Source: Candidatus Bathyarchaeota archaeon
GTDB lineage: Archaea > Thermoproteota > Bathyarchaeia > Bathyarchaeales > Bathycorpusculaceae
Direction of reading: 5' to 3'
DNA: 64,000 nucleotides
Assembly: GCA_026014735.1 (NCBI GenBank)
Contig: JAOZHT010000003.1
Coordinates: 62,001 to 126,000, forward strand
The first letter of the stretch is position 1. Every line of letters begins with the position of its first letter. Of the stretch, positions 1,445 to 38,202 are shown one piece after another. The notes beneath the pieces were generated by a model. It did no database searches. It worked only from the letters and a program-made list of their open reading frames with translations, and was not told the origin of the DNA. Both the position numbers and the translations under genes were made by a program.

Positions 1445-4342
1445 ATGCGTGACAACATATCCATCAAGGGTGCACGGGAGCATAACCTCAAAAACATCGA
1501 TTTAGAGTTGCCCCGAAACAAACTTATAGTGATAACTGGGCTGTCGGGCAGCGGCAAATCCACCTTGGCCTTTGACACCATCTACGCCGAGGGGCAACGC
1601 CGCTACGTCGAGAGCCTATCCGCCTACGCAAGGCAATTCTTGGGCTTGATGGATAAACCCGACGTGGACAGCATCGAGGGGCTCTCCCCCGCCATATCTA
1701 TCGAGCAGAAGAGCACCAGCAAAAACCCCCGCAGCACCGTGGGCACCGTCACCGAAATCTACGATTACCTCAGATTACTTTTTGCCCGCATCGGCACCCA
1801 TCACTGCCCCAAATGCGGCAGCAGCATCCACCCTCAAAGCGCCGAGAACATCACCAGCCTGATTATGTCTGAGAAGGGCAGAACTCTGGTTTTTCTTGCG
1901 CCAATTATCCGCGGAATGAAGGGCACCCACGAATCCATCTTCGACGACCTCAAACGTGAGGGCTACACCAAAATCCGCGTGGACCAGAAAATCTATGAGA
2001 CCGATCACGTCAAGGAAGAAGTCAAGCTGGTCAGATACGAGAAGCACTGGATAGAAGCCGTCATCGACACGGTGGAAATCAGCGACGAGGAACGCAGCCG
2101 CATAGCTGAAGCCGTGGAAGCCGCACTTAAAACCGGCAAGGGCACCATGGTGGTAATCGACGCCGCCAACTCGGATGCGGGCGAAAAGAAGGAGCTTGAA
2201 CGCTTCGAGGGCGAAACCATGTACAGCACCTTCGGCGCCTGCCCCAACCACCCCGAAATCGTGTTCGAGAGCCTTGAACCCCGCATGTTCAGCTTCAACT
2301 CGCCGTTTGGCGCCTGCCCCGTCTGCCACGGTTTGGGCGAAATCACCGAGGTTACCGCCGACAAAGTCATCCCTGACCATAACCTATCCATCATGGACGG
2401 CGCGTTGGCGGTTTACAAGGGTACAATGGATTTAAGTTGGCGCGCCCAGCAGTTGGCCGCCGTGGGCAAAAAACACGGCTTTGACGTTTTCACCCCGATT
2501 AAGGACTTCACCGAGGACCAGGTGAAGGTGCTGCTTTACGGCGACCGTGAACCCATAAACGCGAATTGGAGCAACGGCGCGAACATGTGGATGCGTGACG
2601 GCTGGGAAGGCGTGATTCCGCAGACGATGCGGCTGTATCGGCAAACCGAAAGTGAATGGCGCAAAGAAGACATCGAGAAATTCATGACGGCTCGTCCCTG
2701 CAACGCCTGCCATGGCAGAAAACTCCAGCCCGTCGTGCTCGCCGTGCAGATATTGGGAAAAAGCATCATAGACGTAACTGACCTCTCCATCGAGGAATCG
2801 GTGGATTTCTTCCATGACTTACCCCCACAGCTTAACGAGAAGGAACTGATGATTGCCAAGCAGGTGCTCAAAGAAATTAACGAGCGATTGGGCTTCCTTA
2901 AAAACGTGGGGTTGGGTTATCTCTCGCTGTCCCGCGCGGCAAAAACATTGTCGGGCGGCGAAGCCCAGCGTATCCGGTTGGCAACGCAGATTGGCAGCAA
3001 CCTCATGGGTGTCCTCTATATCCTCGACGAACCCAGTATCGGATTGCATCAGCGCGACAACGCCAAGCTCATCGCTACATTGGCGCGGCTACGGGACCTC
3101 GGTAACACGTTGATTGTGGTGGAGCATGATGAGGACACGATGCGCCACGCAGACTACATCGTTGATATGGGTCCAGGCGCTGGCGTGCATGGCGGCCACA
3201 TCGTCGCGGAGGGCTCACCAACCGAGGTTATGGCGAACAGCCGCAGCCTCACAGGCAAATACCTCAGCGGCGAACTAAAAATCGAGGTGCCCACAGAACG
3301 CCGCAGCCCCGTAGGCTACATCAGCGTGAAGGGCGTCACAGAAAACAACCTCAAAAACCTCAACGTGCAGCTTCCGCTCGGCGTCCTCTGCGGCGTCACC
3401 GGCGTCTCCGGCTCGGGCAAAAGCACCCTTATGAACCTCACCACCATCCCCGCATTGCGGCAGATGTTCGGCGAACAAGTCGACAAAGTTGGTAAACACG
3501 AGAAGATAGAAGTGCCCGAAGTGGTCCGCAACGTCATAGTCATCGACCAAGACCCCATCGGACGCACCCCCCGCAGCAACCCAGCCACCTACACCAAGCT
3601 CTTCGACGAAATCCGCCGCATCTTCGCATCCACCAAAGAAGCTAAAGCCCGCGGCTACAAAGAGGGCCGCTTCAGCTTCAACGTGAAAGGCGGCAGATGC
3701 GAGAACTGCCAGGGCGACGGCGTCATCCGCATCGAAATGAATTTCCTCCCCGACGTGTACGTGCAGTGCAGCGAATGCAAGGGCAAACGCTACAACAAAG
3801 AAACCCTCAGTGTGCAGTATAAGGGCAAAAACATCGCTGACGTGCTGGATATGACGGTGGAGGAGGCTGCGAAGTTCTTTGAGAACACGCCGCGGGTGGC
3901 GCGCAAGCTGCAGACGCTGCTTGATGTGGGTTTAGGTTACATTAAGCTGGGGCAGAGTAGCACCACTTTGTCGGGCGGGGAGAGCCAGCGCATCAAAATC
4001 ACCCGCGAACTCAGCAAACACAAGAGCGGCCACGTCGTGTACATGCTTGACGAGCCCACCACGGGCTTGCACTTCGACGACACCAAACGTCTCATCCGCG
4101 TCCTCAATCGGCTGGTGGACAACGGCAACACCGTCTACATCATCGAACACAACCTCGACGTCATCAAAAGCTGCGACTACCTCATCGACCTCGGACCCGA
4201 AGGCGGCGCAGCAGGCGGACAACTCCTCGCGCAGGGCACACCCGAAGAAGTTGCAAAAGTACCGCAGAGCTACACAGGCAAATTTCTAGAAAAGATACTG
4301 AACCATAAGCTGGAAGAGGCAGTAGCGGCTACCAAGAATTAA
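1445..4342 (+). CDS. uvrA: UvrA excinuclease ATPase subunit A
   Basis: Full-length UvrA (965 residues, normal for the family), the damage-sensing dimeric ABC ATPase that loads UvrB. The first Walker A (GLSGSGKS) is at residues 32-39. A CPKC zinc module lies near 114, the first signature (LSGGEAQRIRLA) near 504 and the second Walker A (VSGSGKS) near 654. The long zinc finger starts with CENC and ends with CSEC near 755-780, and the second signature (LSGGESQRIKI) is near 845. Both ABC modules look intact. It begins with ATG shortly after uvrB. Its last 14 bases overlap the 3' end of the convergent gene on the minus strand, leaving no room for a separate terminator. Confidence 0.98.
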   Translation: MRDNISIKGAREHNLKNIDLELPRNKLIVITGLSGSGKSTLAFDTIYAEGQRRYVESLSAYARQFLGLMDKPDVDSIEGLSPAISIEQKSTSKNPRSTVGTVTEIYDYLRLLFARIGTHHCPKCGSSIHPQSAENITSLIMSEKGRTLVFLAPIIRGMKGTHESIFDDLKREGYTKIRVDQKIYETDHVKEEVKLVRYEKHWIEAVIDTVEISDEERSRIAEAVEAALKTGKGTMVVIDAANSDAGEKKELERFEGETMYSTFGACPNHPEIVFESLEPRMFSFNSPFGACPVCHGLGEITEVTADKVIPDHNLSIMDGALAVYKGTMDLSWRAQQLAAVGKKHGFDVFTPIKDFTEDQVKVLLYGDREPINANWSNGANMWMRDGWEGVIPQTMRLYRQTESEWRKEDIEKFMTARPCNACHGRKLQPVVLAVQILGKSIIDVTDLSIEESVDFFHDLPPQLNEKELMIAKQVLKEINERLGFLKNVGLGYLSLSRAAKTLSGGEAQRIRLATQIGSNLMGVLYILDEPSIGLHQRDNAKLIATLARLRDLGNTLIVVEHDEDTMRHADYIVDMGPGAGVHGGHIVAEGSPTEVMANSRSLTGKYLSGELKIEVPTERRSPVGYISVKGVTENNLKNLNVQLPLGVLCGVTGVSGSGKSTLMNLTTIPALRQMFGEQVDKVGKHEKIEVPEVVRNVIVIDQDPIGRTPRSNPATYTKLFDEIRRIFASTKEAKARGYKEGRFSFNVKGGRCENCQGDGVIRIEMNFLPDVYVQCSECKGKRYNKETLSVQYKGKNIADVLDMTVEEAAKFFENTPRVARKLQTLLDVGLGYIKLGQSSTTLSGGESQRIKITRELSKHKSGHVVYMLDEPTTGLHFDDTKRLIRVLNRLVDNGNTVYIIEHNLDVIKSCDYLIDLGPEGGAAGGQLLAQGTPEEVAKVPQSYTGKFLEKILNHKLEEAVAATKN

Positions 4343-5291
4343 CCAACTTTCTTTTGTGTAAAACTACCGCTGCTATACTTGCATTAACCATCAAGAATAT
4401 TACAAGAGATATCACCGTAAATTCGGGTATGATACATGGCGGACGCGCGACGAGTCGGTACAGTAAGCAAATTGAGGTTGTTTCGACATTGGTATCGGTA
4501 TTCGAGCTAATGTTTCCTAAAGTCGAGGTATAGCCTGTGTGAATGCCGCCGTCGGTGGGGTCTTGAAGGTTCCAGATTATAGTTTGCATTTCTGCATAGT
4601 TAGCGTCAGTGAAAATTGTTTGTTGGGTTAAGGTCCCGTTTGTAGTGCAATTCAGTGATTTTGCTATCCAGAGGGCTAACCCGATTTTGTATGTTTGAAA
4701 TTCTGTCGGGTTAGCATTGAAAGGTTTGTCTATGAATCCTGTGCCGTTCCACATAGACATGCCTTGGTTAAAATATGTAATTGCCCCCGCGATGTCATTT
4801 TTCAAGAGGAGATTCTGAGACCACCAAAAACAAAGATCTGCATACTGAGTGAAGTCTTGCATTACATCGCCGTCACGGATGTCTTCCTTGATTATGTACT
4901 CCCCGACAGAAATATTGTAGCTGTTTGAAGCCCTAATTGGTTCAATTGTTTTGTTTAAGGTTAATTCGACTAATCCGTTTCCGCTCACGCCATATTCAGC
5001 AAGGCTCTGGTTCAAAGTCTCAGACAGAGAGTGATTATACCCTGACAGTACTGCGTAAGCTAGAAGATTATCGTTAGTTAGCCATATCGTGTTAGGCTCT
5101 GCTATAGGGGCAGCTTTAAGCAACCCAACACTGGGAACGTACATTACGTTAGTTAAATAATTGACGGCTTTTTCTGCCTGGGTATGGTAGGTGCCTCCAA
5201 GTGCTAGCAACGGATACTGGGTTACGCTTATGCTTGTAAATAGAGCTAAAATTGAGATAACCGCAGCCACCAAAACGGAATGCTTCCTCAT
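4329..5291 (-). CDS. Secreted protein of unknown function with PEF-type C-terminal sorting signal
   Basis: A 320-residue exported protein whose function I do not recognise. It has an N-terminal signal peptide (MRKHSVLV followed by a hydrophobic core) and a body rich in N-x-S/T sites and aromatic residues, possibly an all-alpha toroid-like fold. The C-terminus has a Pro-Glu-Phe motif, then a hydrophobic helix and a basic tail (HKRK). This tripartite end is the known architecture of PEF-CTERM proteins processed by archaeosortases, and an archaeosortase gene lies at 36.1-38.2 kb. ATG at 5291 is chosen because GAGAGG sits just upstream; a TTG at 5306 is possible. It converges on uvrA with a 14-base overlap. 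Confidence 0.8.
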   Translation of the reverse strand: MRKHSVLVAAVISILALFTSISVTQYPLLALGGTYHTQAEKAVNYLTNVMYVPSVGLLKAAPIAEPNTIWLTNDNLLAYAVLSGYNHSLSETLNQSLAEYGVSGNGLVELTLNKTIEPIRASNSYNISVGEYIIKEDIRDGDVMQDFTQYADLCFWWSQNLLLKNDIAGAITYFNQGMSMWNGTGFIDKPFNANPTEFQTYKIGLALWIAKSLNCTTNGTLTQQTIFTDANYAEMQTIIWNLQDPTDGGIHTGYTSTLGNISSNTDTNVETTSICLLYRLVARPPCIIPEFTVISLVIFLMVNASIAAVVLHKRKLVNSW

Positions 5292-5407
5292 ACCAGCCTC
5301 TCTCAACAGTTTACAAGTCGGCCTTAACAGGTATATAAAACCTAGGTGGGCCCTGTGTCCTGCAACTTTGCGAATGCCAGAAGTTTAGCCGCCGCTTGGT
5401 TTGCTGT

Positions 5408-25908: not shown

Positions 25909-26019
25909 GATTATAACTTGCGAGGCGCCCACCTGAAGGGTATGCTTTTTTGGCTGTAGGTTATAAAATTTTAAAGCTTTAATTGTAATTCTACAAAGAA
26001 TAAACGGGTGCCGACCAGA

Positions 26020-26790
26020 ATGTCAAATAAAAAAATGGGCTTTAACCGACTTCTTAGCTTAATTATGTTTATTGCCGGACTGAGCCTAGTGGCTGTTTCA
26101 GCAATTAACGCTTCTTCCTACATAGCTATACTTGGCACAGCCGCATTTTTTTGGGGCGCAATCCTACTCTATTTAACCCCCACAAAACACGTGCCCCTAT
26201 CTTACCTTGAAGCTTCAACAAACTTCCAACTTGACAATATCGAGCGTATACTTACTGAATTCAACCTAAACGAAAAAGGCATTTATCTCCCACCGAAAAA
26301 CCTAACAGACGTGGAATCAAGCCTAATTTTTATCCCAAAATCCCCACAAACCCTTATACCTACCACAAAAAGCGACGAAAACCTGCGTCTAAGACAAAAC
26401 GATGGCTTATTCCTCACGCCACCCGGTAAAGGACTACTGAAGGTCATGGAAAAAGTGGGCAAAGTCTCGTTTACCAAACTTGATATCCGAGAATTGGAAC
26501 CGACACTTAAAAAGATCCTAATCGAAGACTTTGAATCAGCAGAAAAAATAGAAACCAACGTTAAACAGAACCTTACAACAATCGTGATCTCCGGAAGTCT
26601 CTTTAGCGAAATTTGCAATCAGGCAAGCCAATCCCCCCGCGCCCACAATCAAGTCGGGTGCCTTTTCTCCAGCGCATTGGCCTGTGCATTGGTAAAAGTT
26701 ATTGGAAACCCCATCATAATCGAAAGCGAAACCACAGATCCAAATACAAAAACCACAACAATTCAATTTAAGTCGATAGTCGAAAAATAG
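26020..26790 (+). CDS. Membrane-associated protein of unknown function
   Basis: A 256-residue protein with two N-terminal membrane helices (about 7-55) and a cytoplasmic alpha/beta domain of about 200 residues. That domain includes KGIYLPPKNLTDVESSLIFI, LFLTPPGKGLLKVMEK and a VGCLFSSALACALVKVIG segment near the end. I recognise no catalytic motif or family. The first codons are Lys/Arg-rich before the first helix, consistent with the ATG at 26020; a GTG four codons earlier is possible. It is followed by the DUF1616 membrane-half gene, and the two may share a role in glycan or envelope processes; this is positional inference. Confidence 0.68.
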   Translation: MSNKKMGFNRLLSLIMFIAGLSLVAVSAINASSYIAILGTAAFFWGAILLYLTPTKHVPLSYLEASTNFQLDNIERILTEFNLNEKGIYLPPKNLTDVESSLIFIPKSPQTLIPTTKSDENLRLRQNDGLFLTPPGKGLLKVMEKVGKVSFTKLDIRELEPTLKKILIEDFESAEKIETNVKQNLTTIVISGSLFSEICNQASQSPRAHNQVGCLFSSALACALVKVIGNPIIIESETTDPNTKTTTIQFKSIVEK

Positions 26791-26896: not shown

Positions 26897-27520
26897 ATGA
26901 CCCAAGGATTAAACCAAACAAGAGGTCAAATTAAACAACTTATACTTGATACGATAGAAAAACAGGCGCCAGAAACTACTGATCAGTTAATTGCTGCCGT
27001 AAAAGATAAAACCGACGCCTTAGACACTGAATCCATCCTCAACTTGATCGTTGAACTTGAAAACGAAGGCAACCTGATTTTTACTGACCGCTCTTCAACT
27101 TCAAATTTTAGAAGCTATATTTTTTCAAAGAAAGCCTCTTGGTTCTGGGTGGTCATTATCCTGTCAATCGGAAGTTGTCTGTCTACATTTATCATTTCAG
27201 ATAGTGCGTCACCTATTCGTTTAGTTTTCAGTTCTATTTTCGTCTTGTTTCTACCGGGTTACGCAATCATAAGATTGCTTTTTCCCATAAAAGTTCCGAT
27301 AACAACCCAAAGCCAAAACATGGATGACATAGAACGTATAGCTATGAGCTTTGGAACCAGTATAGTGCTCGTGCCCATGGTGGGTTTAATCTTGAACTAT
27401 ACTCCCTGGGGTATACGTTTGATTCCCCTCACCACCTGTTTACTTTTATTAACGGTTTTTTTCGCAATTTTAGCAGTTTGGCGTTCAAGCAAACAATTTG
27501 TGCTTCACGAGCAGCATTAA
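26897..27520 (+). CDS. Winged-helix-like domain fused to DUF1616 membrane half
   Basis: A 207-residue protein. Residues 1-70 form a helical domain (TRGQIKQLILDTI, LIVELENEGNLIF) resembling a winged helix. Four membrane helices follow and include FVLFLPGYAIIRLLFP, DIERIAMSFGTSIVLVPMVG and NYTPWGIRL. These blocks are the hallmark of the N-terminal membrane part of DUF1616. The extracellular half usual in that family is missing here, but a protein resembling it is encoded at 12.26-12.87 kb. A membrane-bound regulator is conceivable. Its start ATG at 26897 follows a weak GGTAA. Confidence 0.78.
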   Translation: MTQGLNQTRGQIKQLILDTIEKQAPETTDQLIAAVKDKTDALDTESILNLIVELENEGNLIFTDRSSTSNFRSYIFSKKASWFWVVIILSIGSCLSTFIISDSASPIRLVFSSIFVLFLPGYAIIRLLFPIKVPITTQSQNMDDIERIAMSFGTSIVLVPMVGLILNYTPWGIRLIPLTTCLLLLTVFFAILAVWRSSKQFVLHEQH

Positions 27521-28013: not shown

Positions 28014-31000
28014 TTGAAAAAATCAAGTTTCTGCACTCTTATCGTTTTTTCATTAATAATCATTCAATTGTGTGTCTCTGCAAGTTTAATCAAAGGCGAC
28101 TTGACCCCAGCAGCCATCTTGAATGAAAACCCCCAAAACCAAAGCTTCTTCCCCTACGCCCCAAACACCTTGATGCAAGATTTATCCTGCTCATATAACC
28201 CAAACCATAACCCCTTCGACCAATGTTTCTGCGATAAGTGCACAGTAGTTCACCACATCACCGTTACTCCAAAAAACGCAACAATCAAAGCTAATGAATC
28301 CCAAACTTACCAAGCCACAGCATACGACTCATGTGGCCACGGATGGGACATTACCACATCGAAAGACATCGTTTGGAGCATCAACAGTGGTGAAGGCACG
28401 TATGTTTGGACGGCTAATTCTGTTCAAGTAACCAAACCCGGTACCTGGGTAGTTACGGCCAGCTACTGCGACAAAAATGGCACCGCAACTTTAGTGGTGA
28501 AGGATACAAACGTCCAAAAGCTGGACCACATAACTGCCTCCATTAACCCCACAACTGTTGAGGCACCCGGCAACGCAGTCGGTACAGCAACAGCATATGA
28601 TATTCATGGTAAAAGCTGGGACGTAAGTGCCTTGGCAACATGGATAATCCTCTCTGGCGGCGACGGCGGCGTCTGGCAACAGAACGTTTACACCTCAAAC
28701 ACCGCAGGAGTCTACACTGTACAAGCCACCTATCAGGGAAAAACAGCCACAGCCAACCTAACCGTAACACATGCCACTAACCCCTCATACATAGACCACA
28801 TCACCGCCCAAGTCAACCCAACCGCCATAGCTGCACCCAACACGGCAACGGGCTCGGCGACAGCATACGACAAATTCGGCAACAGTTGGGATATAAGCAC
28901 ACTGGCAGCTTGGAGCATACCCGCCGGAGGCGACGGGGGAACATGGTCGAATAATGTTTACGCCTCAAAGAATGCTGGAGCCTACACGGTGCAGGCATCA
29001 TATAGCGGTAAAACCGCCACTGCTTCTCTAACAGTTACCCATGCAACAGACATCGCTTATCTTGATCACATAACTGCCTCCTTGAGCCCGACAACGGTGG
29101 CAGCGCCAAATACTGTCACAGGTACCGCAACGGCATATGATACCTTTGGTAACAGCTGGGACATCAGCACCCAGGCGGCATGGAGCCTACCTAAGGGAGG
29201 CGACGGAGGCTCCTGGAGCAGCAACATCTACACATCCCATACAGCCGGCAGCTACCTCGTACAAGCATCATATAACGGCAAAACCGCAACCGCCGACCTG
29301 ACAGTAACACATGCAACCGACCAAGCCCACCTAGCCTACATAACCGCCCGAGTGAACCCGACCACCGTAGCCGCTCCAGGCAAAGTCACGGGCGCGGCAA
29401 GGGCTTTTGATACCTTCGGTAACAGTTGGGACGTGAGCACATCGGCAACGTGGGGTATAGCTGCAGGGAACGATGGGGGCTCATGGCAACAAAATATCTA
29501 CACTTCCAGCAAAGCTGGGAACTATACCGTGCAAGCCGCTTATTTGGGCAAGACTGCAACCGCTGAGTTGAAGGTAACACACGCAACTGACTTTGCCTAT
29601 TTGGATCGTATCGTGGCATCGGTCAGTCCATCAACTGTAGCCGCGCCAAACCAAGCTACAGGAAAAGCCATAGCCACCGACCAATTCGGCAACAGTTGGG
29701 ATGTAAGTGCAGTGGCAACTTGGAGCATTCCAGCTGGAGGCGACGGCGGCTCATGGAACAGCAACGTTTACACCTCCCACACGGCAGGCAACTATGTCAT
29801 ACAAGCCGCCTACGGAGGAAAAACCGCCACCGCGGCCTTAACAGTCACCCATGCAACCGATCCCGTGTATCTCGACCACATAACGGTTTCTTTAAACCCG
29901 ACAACCGTGTCTGCACCAAACACCGTTACCGGCACAGCCACGGCATATGACACATTCGGCAACAGCTGGGACATAAGCACCCAAGCAGCATGGAGTATAC
30001 CTGCGGGCAATGACGGCGGCAGTTGGCTAAAGAACATTTACACATCTAACAAAGCAGGGACATACACTGCACAGGCTACTTACGGGGGCAAATCAGCTTC
30101 TGCAAGCCTGACTGTTACTCACGCGACGGATATAGCATATTTAGCTTTCATCACCGCCTCAGTGAATCCGACTAAAGTGGCTGCCCCCAACACGGTTACT
30201 GGAACAGCCACAGCAACCGACATTTACGGTAACAGCTGGGACATAAGCACCGCAGCTATCTGGAGTATTCCTTCTGGAGGCGACGGGGGCGTCTGGCAAC
30301 AGAACGTTTACACCTCAAACACAGCAGGGGTCTACACTGTACAGGCGTCTTATGGAGGCAAGAGCGCAAACGCCGATTTGACGGTGACACATGCCTCTGA
30401 CGTCTCATACTTAGATCATATAGTTGCATCAATCAACCCAACAACCGTAGCTGCACCAGACCATGCCACCGGAAAAGCCACGGCACACGACAAATTCGGT
30501 AATAGCTGGGACATCAGCACACTGGCAGCTTGGAGCATACCCGTAGGAAACGACGGCGGCGTCTGGGCTAAGAATGTTTACACCTCAAAAACCGCTGGCA
30601 ACTACACCGTTGAAGCTTCATACAGCGGCAAAACCGCAACAACCACTCTAACAGTCACTCATGCAACCGACACAGCATACCTCGACCACATCGCTGCGTC
30701 CTTAAGCCCTGCAACTGTTGCTGCACCAAACAAAGTCACAGGCAAAGCAACGGCATACGACACCTTTGGTAACAGCTGGGATATAAGCTCACAGGCAACA
30801 TGGAGTATACCTAAGGGTGGGGACGGAGGCTCTTGGGACGCAAACGTCTACACATCCCACACAGCCGGAAACTACACCATACAGGCAGCATACAGCGGCA
30901 AAACCGCCAGCGTCGCCCTGGAAGTCACCCACGCCGTCGACGGAGCATATCTTGACCGAATCGTGATTGCACCCAAGGAGTCAACTGTTGATAGAGGAGT

Positions 31001-31901
31001 TGCACAGTATTATAGTGCCACTGCCTTTGATAACTTCGGCAACAGCTGGGCCGTTGAGGCCGCCTACAGCTGCCCCAACTCCAACGTCGTCGTTTCGGGG
31101 AACTCTGCACGTTCAAGCATCAACGGCCAATACACCATCACAGGGGTGTATAGTGGAAAATCGGATTCTGCCATCCTCAATGTAGTCGGGCAGTCTTCGT
31201 CTTCGGACTCTGGCTCTGGCTCCTCGAGTGGTGTAGGGACAATTAAATCGATAGTGGTGTTACCTGCATCGTCATCGGTTGCAGCGGGCGGGTCCATGAC
31301 GTTTGTGGCTTTAGCCTCCGATGGCCATACCAGCTGGAGCGTTACTGGCAAAGTCACATGGAGCATCGATGCATCTGCAGGGGGCTCTTGGAACCAGGCA
31401 ACTGGAACCTACACTTCATCTAAAGCAGGCAACTGGACAGTGAAGGCAACCTTAGGCAGCGTCTATGGAAATGCCCGTTTGATGGTGAATTCCAGCTCAG
31501 CTGTGGTTGACCACATCGCAATCAGCCCCAAGAAAGCATCAGTTGCGGCTGGCGTTGCCCAGAACTATACGGTTACAGCTTACGACAAAGAGGGCAACAG
31601 TTTAGGTGACGTTACGGCGCTGTCAAATTTCAGTGCAGCGGGCGCTTTAGTGGAGGGCAATTCTGTTAGGGCAAGCAGTGCAGGCTCCTACAATGTAACC
31701 GCAGCCTACGAGGGGCTGGTTGACGTGGCAGTGTTAACGGTGACTGAGCAAAGCGTGAACTTGTACCTATATTTGGAGGCAGTGTTGTTGGCGCTGGCTG
31801 GTCTGCTGGCTGGGCTGGGAGCGTTTAGGTACTATGGGGTTAGGCGTCGCCGCAGGCTAAATCGCAGTGAACCCGCCGTGGATGCTGCCGGACAAATTTA
31901 G
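28014..31901 (+). CDS. Giant surface protein with tandem Ig-like repeats
   Basis: A 1,295-residue exported protein. A signal peptide (about 3-25) is followed by a Cys-containing segment (CFCDKC near residue 70). Next come an Ig-like domain, nine tandem 90-residue Ig-like units (residues 170-979), three diverged units, and a C-terminal membrane helix with a strongly basic tail (VRRRRRLNR). Each unit has the same layout: HITAS-x-x-PTTVAAP, TATAYDTFGNSWD, GGDGGSW, YTS-x-TAG-Y-x-V-x-ASY and TLTVTHAT. This resembles the BIG/invasin-type beta-sandwich used as a stalk. It is probably an adhesin or cell-wall stalk. TTG start with GAGGT four bases upstream. No PEF/PGF sorting motif is seen. Confidence 0.9.
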   Translation: MKKSSFCTLIVFSLIIIQLCVSASLIKGDLTPAAILNENPQNQSFFPYAPNTLMQDLSCSYNPNHNPFDQCFCDKCTVVHHITVTPKNATIKANESQTYQATAYDSCGHGWDITTSKDIVWSINSGEGTYVWTANSVQVTKPGTWVVTASYCDKNGTATLVVKDTNVQKLDHITASINPTTVEAPGNAVGTATAYDIHGKSWDVSALATWIILSGGDGGVWQQNVYTSNTAGVYTVQATYQGKTATANLTVTHATNPSYIDHITAQVNPTAIAAPNTATGSATAYDKFGNSWDISTLAAWSIPAGGDGGTWSNNVYASKNAGAYTVQASYSGKTATASLTVTHATDIAYLDHITASLSPTTVAAPNTVTGTATAYDTFGNSWDISTQAAWSLPKGGDGGSWSSNIYTSHTAGSYLVQASYNGKTATADLTVTHATDQAHLAYITARVNPTTVAAPGKVTGAARAFDTFGNSWDVSTSATWGIAAGNDGGSWQQNIYTSSKAGNYTVQAAYLGKTATAELKVTHATDFAYLDRIVASVSPSTVAAPNQATGKAIATDQFGNSWDVSAVATWSIPAGGDGGSWNSNVYTSHTAGNYVIQAAYGGKTATAALTVTHATDPVYLDHITVSLNPTTVSAPNTVTGTATAYDTFGNSWDISTQAAWSIPAGNDGGSWLKNIYTSNKAGTYTAQATYGGKSASASLTVTHATDIAYLAFITASVNPTKVAAPNTVTGTATATDIYGNSWDISTAAIWSIPSGGDGGVWQQNVYTSNTAGVYTVQASYGGKSANADLTVTHASDVSYLDHIVASINPTTVAAPDHATGKATAHDKFGNSWDISTLAAWSIPVGNDGGVWAKNVYTSKTAGNYTVEASYSGKTATTTLTVTHATDTAYLDHIAASLSPATVAAPNKVTGKATAYDTFGNSWDISSQATWSIPKGGDGGSWDANVYTSHTAGNYTIQAAYSGKTASVALEVTHAVDGAYLDRIVIAPKESTVDRGVAQYYSATAFDNFGNSWAVEAAYSCPNSNVVVSGNSARSSINGQYTITGVYSGKSDSAILNVVGQSSSSDSGSGSSSGVGTIKSIVVLPASSSVAAGGSMTFVALASDGHTSWSVTGKVTWSIDASAGGSWNQATGTYTSSKAGNWTVKATLGSVYGNARLMVNSSSAVVDHIAISPKKASVAAGVAQNYTVTAYDKEGNSLGDVTALSNFSAAGALVEGNSVRASSAGSYNVTAAYEGLVDVAVLTVTEQSVNLYLYLEAVLLALAGLLAGLGAFRYYGVRRRRRLNRSEPAVDAAGQI
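28521..30950 (+). repeat. Nine tandem 270-bp repeats inside the surface-protein gene
   Basis: Units begin at 28521, 28791, 29061, 29331, 29601, 29871, 30141, 30411 and 30681; the tenth, diverged unit begins at 30951. Every unit is exactly 270 bases, with no indel in 2.4 kb. Units 1 and 7 share a nearly identical stretch of about 50 bases (28671 and 30291). Units 2 and 8 share an identical stretch of about 28 bases, and units 3 and 9 are alike at protein level. The relationship at a distance of six units suggests block duplication or gene conversion. Confidence 0.95.
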
Positions 31902-31945: not shown

Positions 31946-32215
31946 CTAAGCCAGATTCATGCGCTTAATGAAATCTAAGACTTTCTCGTACTCCTTTAGG
32001 TACTGCCGTCCCTTCTCCGTTAGCCTAGGCGAAGCCGCATCCTCAATCAAGCCGAGATCTTCAAGCTTATTCACGTACTTCTTTAAGCGATCAAAGGACA
32101 CGTTGAGTTTAACCTGTACATGAGTTAACAGAATCTTCTCGTTCTTTGACTCCTCGTTCAGCAAAGCCAGTAAATCACCGTATATGATGACTTTGTCTCT
32201 GCGTGCATTCTTCAT
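31946..32215 (-). CDS. Small winged-helix transcription regulator
   Basis: An 89-residue protein with KVIIYGDLLALLNEE, a VQVKLNVSFDRLKKYVNKLE helix-turn-helix and a wing ending in SPRLTEKGRQYLKEY: a classic archaeal PadR/ArsR-like small winged helix. Its ATG directly follows the TAA of the membrane-protein gene upstream on the same strand (TAAATG), so the two are co-translated. A regulator paired with a polytopic membrane protein suggests a simple sensor-regulator module; the signal is unknown. Confidence 0.82.
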   Translation of the reverse strand: MKNARRDKVIIYGDLLALLNEESKNEKILLTHVQVKLNVSFDRLKKYVNKLEDLGLIEDAASPRLTEKGRQYLKEYEKVLDFIKRMNLA

Positions 32216-32905
32216 TTAATCGGTGTCCTTTTTAGGTGATCGATAAAATGTTATGTATGCAACGAATAGGAAAATCGCTATACCGCCGCCCCGGATTAGC
32301 TGTGAGCCCCACCACGCCAGCATACTCGAATCTGCAGCCCAGATAATTATCAAGAACTGGCTAATTGCAAAGAACATGTAGCCTATAGGAGTCAATACAT
32401 TGGCAGGCTGGGGGTTTGCTACCTGATTTTTTAACGCCATAACGATAATGTAACTTAAGCTTATGATTATGAAAATGCGAACGTACTGCGAAGCTACTCT
32501 GTAGTTTGCGAAATTAAGTTGAGGCAGAAAAATCGCCGATATAACGGAGGCTATAATCGCAACCAAGATTACGCTGAAGGTGATATTCCAGATAAGCTGG
32601 TTAGTCTCGCTTTGCTTGCTTTGCTCTCGGGAAAAATGGTAAGTTGCCGCAAGAAAGACAAAGGCGAAGGTTCTGGCTACCAGTTGAATCCACAGAAATG
32701 TATCTTTTTGAAGAAAACTGGGTTCGGTATAAATAACTGCTGAGAAAACGTGCGATGCGGCAAGTAAACCGAAAGCAAGGGGCAAACCGACGTACTGCCC
32801 CTTTTTTGTGAAGCGGTACGGTTTCATCATAAACCATACCAGGACAAAAAAGAGTACGGCTGAAACTACCTCAAAGGCTATCCTGAACTCCTGGAAATCA
32901 GACAT
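32216..32905 (-). CDS. Seven-helix membrane protein of unknown function
   Basis: A 229-residue protein with about seven hydrophobic helices separated by short loops, beginning FRIAFEVVSAVLFFVLVWFM and ending with a basic YRSPKKDTD tail. The layout resembles 7TM sensor modules (7TMR or MASE-like), but no signature can be named. It is directly followed by a winged-helix gene with no spacing, which suggests the membrane protein provides a signal to that regulator or is regulated by it. ATG at 32905 is clear, followed by an acidic first loop. Confidence 0.72.
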   Translation of the reverse strand: MSDFQEFRIAFEVVSAVLFFVLVWFMMKPYRFTKKGQYVGLPLAFGLLAASHVFSAVIYTEPSFLQKDTFLWIQLVARTFAFVFLAATYHFSREQSKQSETNQLIWNITFSVILVAIIASVISAIFLPQLNFANYRVASQYVRIFIIISLSYIIVMALKNQVANPQPANVLTPIGYMFFAISQFLIIIWAADSSMLAWWGSQLIRGGGIAIFLFVAYITFYRSPKKDTD

Positions 32906-36114: not shown

Positions 36115-38202
36115 CTAAAAAGAAAGTAAAGAAAAAAAGCCGCCGCGCTTAGGCAACTGGCTTTTCCAAACAAGCACCGGATTATCACGCTCATTTCTCA
36201 TCGACTTCTTAACTAAGCCGACATGTTCTGCTTCGTCCAGCCTCTGTTGGATATCGTTTTCCGATATGGGCGTTGAAGACAGCTTTTGGTATTCACTGGT
36301 TATTGCCTGCAACGTTTTTGAGCGGGCACAATCGATTGCGCGCATAAGGAGTTGGTCTTGCGCTGAAAGTTTATTGTATAGGATTAAAAGAGACCGCTTC
36401 TCCTTGCAGTTCAAGTACAAAGCAAAAAGGGCAATTAACAAAAATAATGCAATTGCCCCTAACGAAAGCGCAAGACCATTCTGGCTAATTATCAACGAGA
36501 TGCTTGTCCAAGTTTTTATCGGTTGCCAGTGATCGTTCACTGCCTGCGCGACCACCAAAACTTGCTCCTCACAAGCCGAGACATCTTGAGGCGAATCCGG
36601 ATACATAATAACGCTCATCATTACGCTTTTTGTCTGGGCAGTTCCATTGATGTTAAACATCGCCGTCTGATACCAGTAGAGAACAACCTCTGTCTGGCTA
36701 GTTTTTGTGTATTGGAAAGCAAAATACCTCGCCATCACAGGAGGATTGTCCTGCAATTGAATATCACGCAGATCAAGCTGCTTTACCGTTGGCTCCTCAC
36801 CTGCACTGAGGGGAACATTGATCAGGCAGGTTTCCCAGCGGTGCTGCCCAGAGGAACTGGAACCGATTTGTATCGCCACCGAAACAGATAAACCGGTTCC
36901 ACTAGTTGGGCGATAAGCATAAGCGATGGCGGCGTCGTTTCCAGTCAATTGCTCATACGACGTATCACGGTATGAATAAGCCAAATTGTAGCCTGATATT
37001 TCAGGTAACGTTGAAGTTGACTTGCTGATCTCAACGCCCGAAGGAGTCTGAACTAAAACCTCTGGCGGACCCTGAGTTAACGCAAAAACAGGGGCTTGAA
37101 TAGAAAGCAGCATAACCGTAGCTAATAGAATCCCCGCTACTTTTGCTATGTCAGCTCTGCGGAGTTTCATTTTCGGGTATGCGAAGAGTTTCCCACAGCT
37201 TACACAGCAGGGAATGGCGGGGGACTTTGATGTGGTGCTGCAGGTTGGGCATGGCGTGGGTAAGGCGGGTTTCTTGAGGATTTTTTCTGTCACGCCAAGC
37301 AAGATTACTGTTCCAATAAACATAAGCACGGTTGCACCGAAATTATGGAAAACCTCAAGAGCCAAGTCTTCGCCCCAAGCATAGCCTATCCCCAGAATTG
37401 CAGTTATTCGAATAATATTTAGAGCGATGATTAATGGGATACCCAAAATGAGGATAACAAGCTTATTGAATATCTTCCCCTGGGTAATGTAAGCGATGGT
37501 TACTGCAAATATCATAAACCCGATTATGCTATAGATACCTGAGCAAGCCACGCTGACATTAAACGGTAAAACAGAAGCATCTGGCCTAATTATTGTGATG
37601 ACTGGGCCGGCGTTACTAGAAGTTAGGGTTGCATTCAACCCAAAAATGTTTGCTAATCCATTGGATGCTACTGCGCTTAAGTTAGCCAGCGCTGAACCGA
37701 CCGTGTAGAGTATTTCTGATGGTGGAGGCGCAAGGAAAATCAGGAAGGCAATAGGGAATATTAATTGCCTCAGCGTCTGCACGTTAAAAAGAATAAGCAC
37801 TAAGCTTGCGGTTAAGAAAGGCAAGGTCAAGACATGAAATTCTAATGGAGTGAATGAATAACTCCCATACCAGTAAATCAGTATAGATATTGCAAAAAGA
37901 GTTATGCCTAATATTGTCCCAAGGTTTTTTTGGAAAACCGATTGATTGTTAACATCCGATTCCAAGGACGCTTTTACCATTTTACGTTTTCGAAAAACCA
38001 AATATGCAAAGATGAAGGGAATAGCGAGTATATGGAAAGATGATTCATCAACTAAGGCCCCTTGAAAAATTAGGCTTAAGTCCTGAAAATACAGTGCAAT
38101 CACGGCTGCTGCAATTACAGCGCACTTTATGGCTAATGTCAGCCTATGTTGATTAAGATATACTCCCGTTTTTTCTTTAGAAGAAACATTTAGACCGTGC
38201 AT
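36115..38202 (-). CDS. Archaeosortase/exosortase fused to zinc ribbon, EpsI-like ectodomain and winged-helix-like tail
   Basis: A 695-residue fusion. Residues 20-305 are the multi-helix exosortase/archaeosortase domain with the catalytic triad in the expected contexts: Cys220 (VACSGIYS), Arg265 (NIIRITAIL) and His286 (EVFHNFGA). Residues 318-337 hold two C-x-x-C pairs (CPTC, CVSC), a cytoplasmic zinc ribbon. A further membrane helix (352-374) is followed by an extracellular domain (about 375-565). This resembles the EpsI partner of exosortases (AYAYRP, then HRWETCLI). A helix (578-598) and a cytoplasmic winged-helix-like region (605-680) end the protein. It would cleave C-terminal tripartite signals and attach the protein to a lipid or glycan. 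Confidence 0.88.
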   Translation of the reverse strand: MHGLNVSSKEKTGVYLNQHRLTLAIKCAVIAAAVIALYFQDLSLIFQGALVDESSFHILAIPFIFAYLVFRKRKMVKASLESDVNNQSVFQKNLGTILGITLFAISILIYWYGSYSFTPLEFHVLTLPFLTASLVLILFNVQTLRQLIFPIAFLIFLAPPPSEILYTVGSALANLSAVASNGLANIFGLNATLTSSNAGPVITIIRPDASVLPFNVSVACSGIYSIIGFMIFAVTIAYITQGKIFNKLVILILGIPLIIALNIIRITAILGIGYAWGEDLALEVFHNFGATVLMFIGTVILLGVTEKILKKPALPTPCPTCSTTSKSPAIPCCVSCGKLFAYPKMKLRRADIAKVAGILLATVMLLSIQAPVFALTQGPPEVLVQTPSGVEISKSTSTLPEISGYNLAYSYRDTSYEQLTGNDAAIAYAYRPTSGTGLSVSVAIQIGSSSSGQHRWETCLINVPLSAGEEPTVKQLDLRDIQLQDNPPVMARYFAFQYTKTSQTEVVLYWYQTAMFNINGTAQTKSVMMSVIMYPDSPQDVSACEEQVLVVAQAVNDHWQPIKTWTSISLIISQNGLALSLGAIALFLLIALFALYLNCKEKRSLLILYNKLSAQDQLLMRAIDCARSKTLQAITSEYQKLSSTPISENDIQQRLDEAEHVGLVKKSMRNERDNPVLVWKSQLPKRGGFFSLLSF

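Follow-up and report, generated by a model that had tools for sequence, protein, structure and literature searches.

A Bathyarchaeota archaeosortase fused to a zinc ribbon, an EpsI-like ectodomain and a winged-helix tail: a probable sorting enzyme for proteins with a VPE-CTERM signal

The window analyzed here, a stretch of 64,000 nucleotides from a Candidatus Bathyarchaeota genome (contig JAOZHT010000003.1, positions 62,001 to 126,000), encodes a protein of 695 amino acids at 36115-38202 on the minus strand, in a single intact open reading frame that begins with ATG and has zero internal stops. From the N-terminus, the protein comprises an exosortase/archaeosortase membrane core, a predicted zinc ribbon, a transmembrane helix, an EpsI-like ectodomain, a further transmembrane region and a winged-helix domain (Table 1). 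An AlphaFold2 model of the full chain, computed from an input alignment of 23 homologs, has a pTM of 0.80 and a mean pLDDT of 79.5. PDB sequence searches with the protein returned no usable match, and a PDB fold search with the full-length model matched the ectodomain only, and weakly (helix-grip/START-like, Apa and SciW-type structures).

Table 1. Features of the fused archaeosortase gene, its conserved neighbors and a candidate substrate, in window coordinates
Feature	Position	Strand	Evidence
Fused archaeosortase gene	36115..38202	(-)	Open frame, ATG; full-length co-linear homologs in many genomes
Exosortase/archaeosortase membrane core, residues 20-308	37279..38145	(-)	PF09721, TIGR04178; multi-helix bundle in model
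Catalytic Cys220 (VACSGIYS), predicted	37543..37545	(-)	Cys in 40/43 homologs, Ser in 3/43
Catalytic Arg265, predicted	37408..37410	(-)	Arg in 43/43 homologs
Catalytic His286, predicted	37345..37347	(-)	His in 42/43 homologs
Cytoplasmic zinc ribbon (predicted), C318xxC321...C333xxC336G	37195..37251	(-)	Cys conservation; DZR/Zn_ribbon_3 matches
Transmembrane helix, residues 349-368	37099..37158	(-)	Helix in model; hydrophobic; preceded by Lys/Arg-rich cytoplasmic stretch
EpsI-like ectodomain, residues 376-565	36508..37077	(-)	Alpha/beta fold; DUF3485 E 0.001; XrtW profile 25-512; invariant residues
C-terminal transmembrane helix region, residues 567-600	36403..36504	(-)	Helices 567-574 and 576-610 in model
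Cytoplasmic winged-helix domain, residues 611-685	36148..36372	(-)	Isolated model, PDB fold matches, Cdc6_C matches
Conserved neighbor: 260-aa membrane protein, GTG start	26008..26790	(+)	Homologs in 18/25 archaeosortase loci
Conserved neighbor: N-terminal HTH-like domain and DUF1616 membrane domain	26897..27520	(+)	PF07760 E 9e-32; homologs in 11/25 loci
Candidate substrate: secreted 325-aa protein, end IIPEF-transmembrane-KRK	4329..5306	(-)	VPE-CTERM profile E 3.4e-9 (tail is a profile member)

In profile searches, residues 32-304 match PF09721 with an E-value of 9.3e-34 (117.4 bits against a cut-off of 25.7), and TIGR04178 is matched at 61.7 bits, against a cut-off of 23. Membership of the exosortase/archaeosortase superfamily is apparent from these above-cut-off profiles, from Cys, Arg and His residues situated in membrane helices and from a co-occurring C-terminal signal. 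A preliminary description of this DNA had placed the catalytic triad at C220, R265 and H286 in an archaeosortase context; the positions are as it gave them, and the residues are near-invariant in 43 homologs. In the AlphaFold2 model, membrane helices extend up to residue 308, and a small extracellular beta insert at 190-215 lies ahead of C220. The top subfamily models for the core are XrtW, XrtD and XrtA, which are of the large 8-TM type, and every one of the XrtW, XrtD, XrtA, ArtA, ArtB, ArtC and ArtF models is either far below its curated cut-off or unmatched. The core is closest to the bacterial 8-TM types XrtW/D/A, nearer to them than to ArtA.

The core is followed by four cysteines, C318, C321, C333 and C336, which had been taken for a ribbon and are conserved as such: three are Cys in all 43 homologs and the fourth in 42, with one Thr. 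The two conserved CxxC knuckles are those of a zinc ribbon, in which metal binding is predicted; DZR/Zn_ribbon_3 profiles match 7-8 of 24 members, and the AlphaFold2 model has a pLDDT of roughly 60-75 in this region. The extra membrane helices proposed around the ectodomain were also recovered, at 349-368 and about 576-610. The ribbon and the C-terminal tail probably face the cytoplasm, because the ribbon linker is rich in Lys and Arg and a KEKR stretch follows the last helix, as the positive-inside rule would have it.

Between these helices the model has an alpha/beta domain at about 383-558, with R412, D423 and H454-x-W-E-x-C459 as invariant residues. Its suggested likeness to EpsI held for position and the XrtW profile: the domain follows a transmembrane helix C-terminal to the core, which is the extracytoplasmic position of EpsI, and the XrtW alignment is continuous over residues 25-512, i.e. 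core and ectodomain. In sequence, the likeness is marginal. DUF3485 (= EpsI; PF11984) matches residues 372-525 at 19.3 bits (E 0.001), under its cut-off of 26.1, and EpsI_fam (TIGR02914) matches 1 of 13 ectodomains (E 0.022). Position supports homology to EpsI; the sequence, which scores below the family cut-offs, does so weakly.

A few homologs have Ser for Cys220 or lack His286. The change from Cys220 to Ser occurs in two separate lineages, namely G105:C9 and five genomes of family f48, in one of which the contig breaks off and leaves only a truncated core. Wherever the ectodomain of a Ser form is readable, Cys459 of the H-x-W-E-x-C motif is likewise Ser, and Ser459 with Cys220 retained was seen in one homolog only. 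Because Cys220 and Cys459 become Ser together in two lineages, cooperation between core and ectodomain is hinted at. One genome with a Ser form still has a VPE-type neighbor (L114; see below for this signal). Variants with Ser for Cys220 lie at L104:6504-8561(-), L112:8779-10950(+), L113:7848-10097(-), L139 and L140. The genome G105 has two paralogs, one with Ser for the catalytic Cys and the other with Glu for the catalytic His and minus one ribbon Cys (L104, L105); they could be decaying or complementing each other.

Polysaccharide genes accompany the fusion. Between 39.9 and 45.1 kb of the window are a UDP-sugar dehydrogenase, a GT2, a flippase and a nucleotidyltransferase, and further sugar genes were read from the sequence at 9-24 kb. 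Across loci, the neighbors of the archaeosortase include a flippase (with homologs in 12 of 25 compared loci), glycosyltransferases and NDP-sugar enzymes. This setting matches that of EpsH, which likewise lies among exopolysaccharide genes (PMC1569441). The membrane protein at 26008-26790 represents a family of ~270 aa, often encoded by the next gene downstream of the archaeosortase, that is present in 23 of 26 fusion genomes and also in 20 of 65 others; it is widespread in Bathyarchaeota and has no good Pfam or NCBIfam match. The N-terminus of the HTH-DUF1616 protein and the archaeosortase winged helix give a profile match with a probability of 78.

Several other genes of these neighborhoods deserve a record. 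In the window, 28014-31901 (+) encodes a 1295-aa secreted protein with ~ten near-identical Ig-like (Big_3) repeats and a C-terminal membrane helix, and of two adjacent genes at 31946-32905 (-), one encodes a winged-helix protein (HTH_45), the other a MASE3-like membrane sensor. A family of small secreted beta-rich proteins of ~150 aa recurs in the same loci (L039, L040, L042, L043, L048, L052, L053, L055, L069 and others).

Among the proteins encoded near the fusion are secreted ones whose C-terminus has three parts, the motif [VI]PE-x-x-x-G, a membrane-spanning segment and an Arg/Lys tail, as in FVIPELGTVLLAASSFAAFALFALRRKRQ and FNVIPEVPIIGTAGASIAMLLGLTYKLKRK. A simple rule finds such tails in 35 of 690 ORFs from 45 archaeosortase neighborhoods, 26 of which have at least one signal-bearing ORF; in a sample of about 0.49 Mb from the fusion's own genome it finds 2 among 480 ORFs (p 1e-6). 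This enrichment is partly circular, as the motif was discovered by inspecting the same neighbors. We also built a VPE-CTERM profile from 30 tails. At E <= 1e-5 it detects the signal in 24 of the 26 family genomes that have the fusion, compared with 4 of the 65 that lack it, counts that ignore genome kinship. A fairer test excludes the source genomes of the profile and gives 11 of 13 genomes with the fusion against 4 of 65 without (p 1e-8), kinship again being ignored. Compared with the NCBIfam CTERM and anchor models, the profile has no convincing match (best E 0.0035).

For the own genome, substrate counts come from the profile search and the sample of about 0.49 Mb. The tail of the protein at 4329-5306 (E 3.4e-9) is one of the 30 profile members, and the second confident match, a 404-aa protein at G000:C3:30024-31238 (E 1.1e-14), is likewise a profile member. 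Going by these tails, VPE-tailed secreted proteins are the probable targets of the fusion. The same genome has two further, shorter archaeosortase-family genes, G000:C2:667961-668746 (+) and G000:C2:473557-474162 (-), in open frames of 377 and 388 aa and without the extra domains; these could process some substrates.

The reading we favor, and hold to be fairly probable, is a one-chain sorting transpeptidase of Bathyarchaeota, set among exopolysaccharide genes, that serves VPE-CTERM proteins and whose cytoplasmic domains have a docking or regulatory role. Secreted proteins with the [VI]PE-x-x-x-G, transmembrane and Arg/Lys tail would pause in the membrane, where, on the outer face, Cys220 would cleave near the VPE motif with the aid of Arg265 and His286; the cleaved protein would be handed to an envelope acceptor, which may be a lipid or be linked to exopolysaccharide. 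The EpsI-like ectodomain, with its invariant His-x-Trp-Glu-x-Cys, may help to handle the substrate or acceptor beside the active site. The zinc ribbon and winged helix, on the cytoplasmic side, would most likely serve for docking a partner or for tuning the enzyme.

Structure prediction bore out the earlier impression that the tail resembles a winged helix. Three helices and two strands (H-H-H-E-E) are present at 614-681 of the full-length model, and the tail modeled alone has the same H-H-H-E-E order, that of the winged-helix fold, with a mean pLDDT of 89.4. A PDB fold search with the tail matched winged helices at probability 1.00, the closest being those of Nur (E 4e-4), Cdc6/Orc1 (TM-score 0.70 on the query), RosR, Fur and MarR. 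In Pfam, Cdc6_C (PF09079) matches 6 of 21 members (best E 0.0047), and MCM4_WHD is matched by some members.

The nearest folds thus include the DNA-binding proteins Nur, Cdc6/Orc1, RosR and Fur, and this, the Cdc6_C and MCM4_WHD matches in some members, the ectodomain-TM-winged helix layout and the conserved membrane HTH-DUF1616 neighbor would suit a membrane-tethered regulator and enzyme in one, whose ectodomain registers sorting, as substrate load or as product, and whose winged helix binds DNA or tethers the replication or division machinery. With DNA binding, sorting would directly control transcription; the tethering variant would run via the Cdc6/MCM-like winged helix. However, the winged helix is among the fastest-changing portions of the chain: between close homologs it is 43% identical and its helix 3 40%, against 63% for the enzyme core. 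Helix 3, the recognition helix, varies between members, most of which have it neutral or acidic, and is devoid of a conserved positive face. Near-invariance in the domain is confined to L655 of that helix and to P675 and W679 of the wing, none of them a DNA-facing basic residue. Because of this rapid change and the lack of a conserved positive face on the recognition helix, sequence-specific DNA binding is not indicated, and the domain looks more like a structural or protein-docking type, though its overall pI is often basic (above 8) and DNA binding keeps some probability. We regard the membrane-tethered regulator as rather unlikely, and as unlikely the related proposal that the transpeptidase has its own sensor and a DNA-binding Cdc6/MCM-like winged helix through which surface anchoring reports to the chromosome or transcription. 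The direct coupling of sorting to regulation put forward in the preliminary description is an inference, to which these features of the winged helix do not point.

A plain exosortase-EpsI fusion, whose ribbon and winged helix regulate nothing and are there as passengers of evolution or to stabilize the structure, is quite improbable. Both modules are highly divergent, metal ligands excepted, and exosortase-EpsI fusions that lack them are known from bacteria (PMC1569441); yet essentially every full-length homolog retains both, down to 26-35% overall identity, and the ribbon cysteines and W679 are invariant or nearly so.

The recurrence asked of related genomes was found, with the full architecture encoded in one gene in 26 of 91 genomes of the own family, nearly all full length, co-linear and 26-65% identical. 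A scan of genome contigs gave 26 loci with an alignment query and none with a single-sequence query. An order-level search yielded the fusion in 40 of 163 genomes, adding families f4, f6, f7 and f9, and a draw across the phylum added two more, f37 and f48. Named records with the fusion are nearly all Candidatus Bathyarchaeota, single-chromosome assemblies among them. The fused architecture is a stable protein family. Misassembly or the chance joining of separate genes has next to no chance of explaining it, because many assemblies made independently, single-contig ones included, have the same domain order, and nothing was found in its favor. In G119, what looked like an ectodomain-winged-helix gene standing alone is broken by a masked N stretch (L102) and does not speak for separate genes. 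A Desulfobacterales MAG contig, binned as bacterial, encodes a 40%-identical archaeosortase core at its end (L054, JABXJW010000182.1); the contig may be archaeal and misbinned, or the gene may have been transferred.

As a probable one-chain sorting transpeptidase, the protein adds a ribbon and a winged helix to the exosortase-EpsI arrangement, and its probable targets bear a VPE signal; these are the new elements, the EpsI fusion itself being known. In NCBIfam, Pfam and the papers searched, we found no match for an exosortase-EpsI protein that also has an internal zinc ribbon and, in the cytoplasm, a Cdc6/MCM-like winged helix, and no paper on an exosortase or archaeosortase whose chain includes a winged helix, incidental mentions being judged from titles. 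To our knowledge, this would be the first sorting enzyme in which zinc-ribbon and winged-helix domains are conserved on the side of the cytoplasm, and we know of almost nothing on envelope construction in Bathyarchaeota. For the Bathyarchaeota envelope, the gain consists of an enzyme that is conserved, conserved neighbor genes, and a set of probable substrates that can be recognized by a new C-terminal signal.

Among known systems, XrtW (NF038142) and XrtD (TIGR04152) share the Cys/Arg/His membrane core and have models longer than that core, the 494 positions of XrtW spanning both core and ectodomain of the window protein. The fusion scores far below both (85 bits against a cut-off of 425 for XrtW, 73 against 400 for XrtD), their profiles stop before the winged helix, and the fusion is archaeal with a different sorting signal. 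Archaeosortase and EpsI had at first been taken as known only as separate families, but EpsH-EpsI fusions of PEP-CTERM systems were described in 2006, with EpsI domains fused or adjacent to EpsH (PMC1569441). In EpsH-EpsI (TIGR02602, TIGR02914), as in the fusion, an EpsI-like domain lies C-terminal to the exosortase, the neighborhood holds exopolysaccharide genes and substrates have a C-terminal tripartite signal (PMC1569441). Unlike EpsH-EpsI, the fusion has a zinc ribbon between these parts and a winged helix after them, and its signal is VPE-xxx-G rather than PEP.

Archaeosortase A (ArtA, TIGR04125) is not known to have an ectodomain, ribbon or winged helix. It uses a PGF motif, and fusion members match the ArtA model weakly (5 of 24). 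As proposed for the fusion, this Haloferax volcanii enzyme is an archaeal Cys/Arg/His sorter of surface proteins that end in a motif, a transmembrane segment and a basic tail. ArtA is a small protein with 7 TMS (PMC4343526); it acts on C-terminal signals, and the proteins that it processes acquire a lipid anchor (PMC7157517, PMC4343526). Unlike Cdc6/Orc1 and MCM, the fusion is membrane-anchored, has no AAA+ domain and does not conserve its recognition helix; what its tail shares with their C-terminal winged helices (PF09079, PF21128) is the fold, together with weak profile matches.
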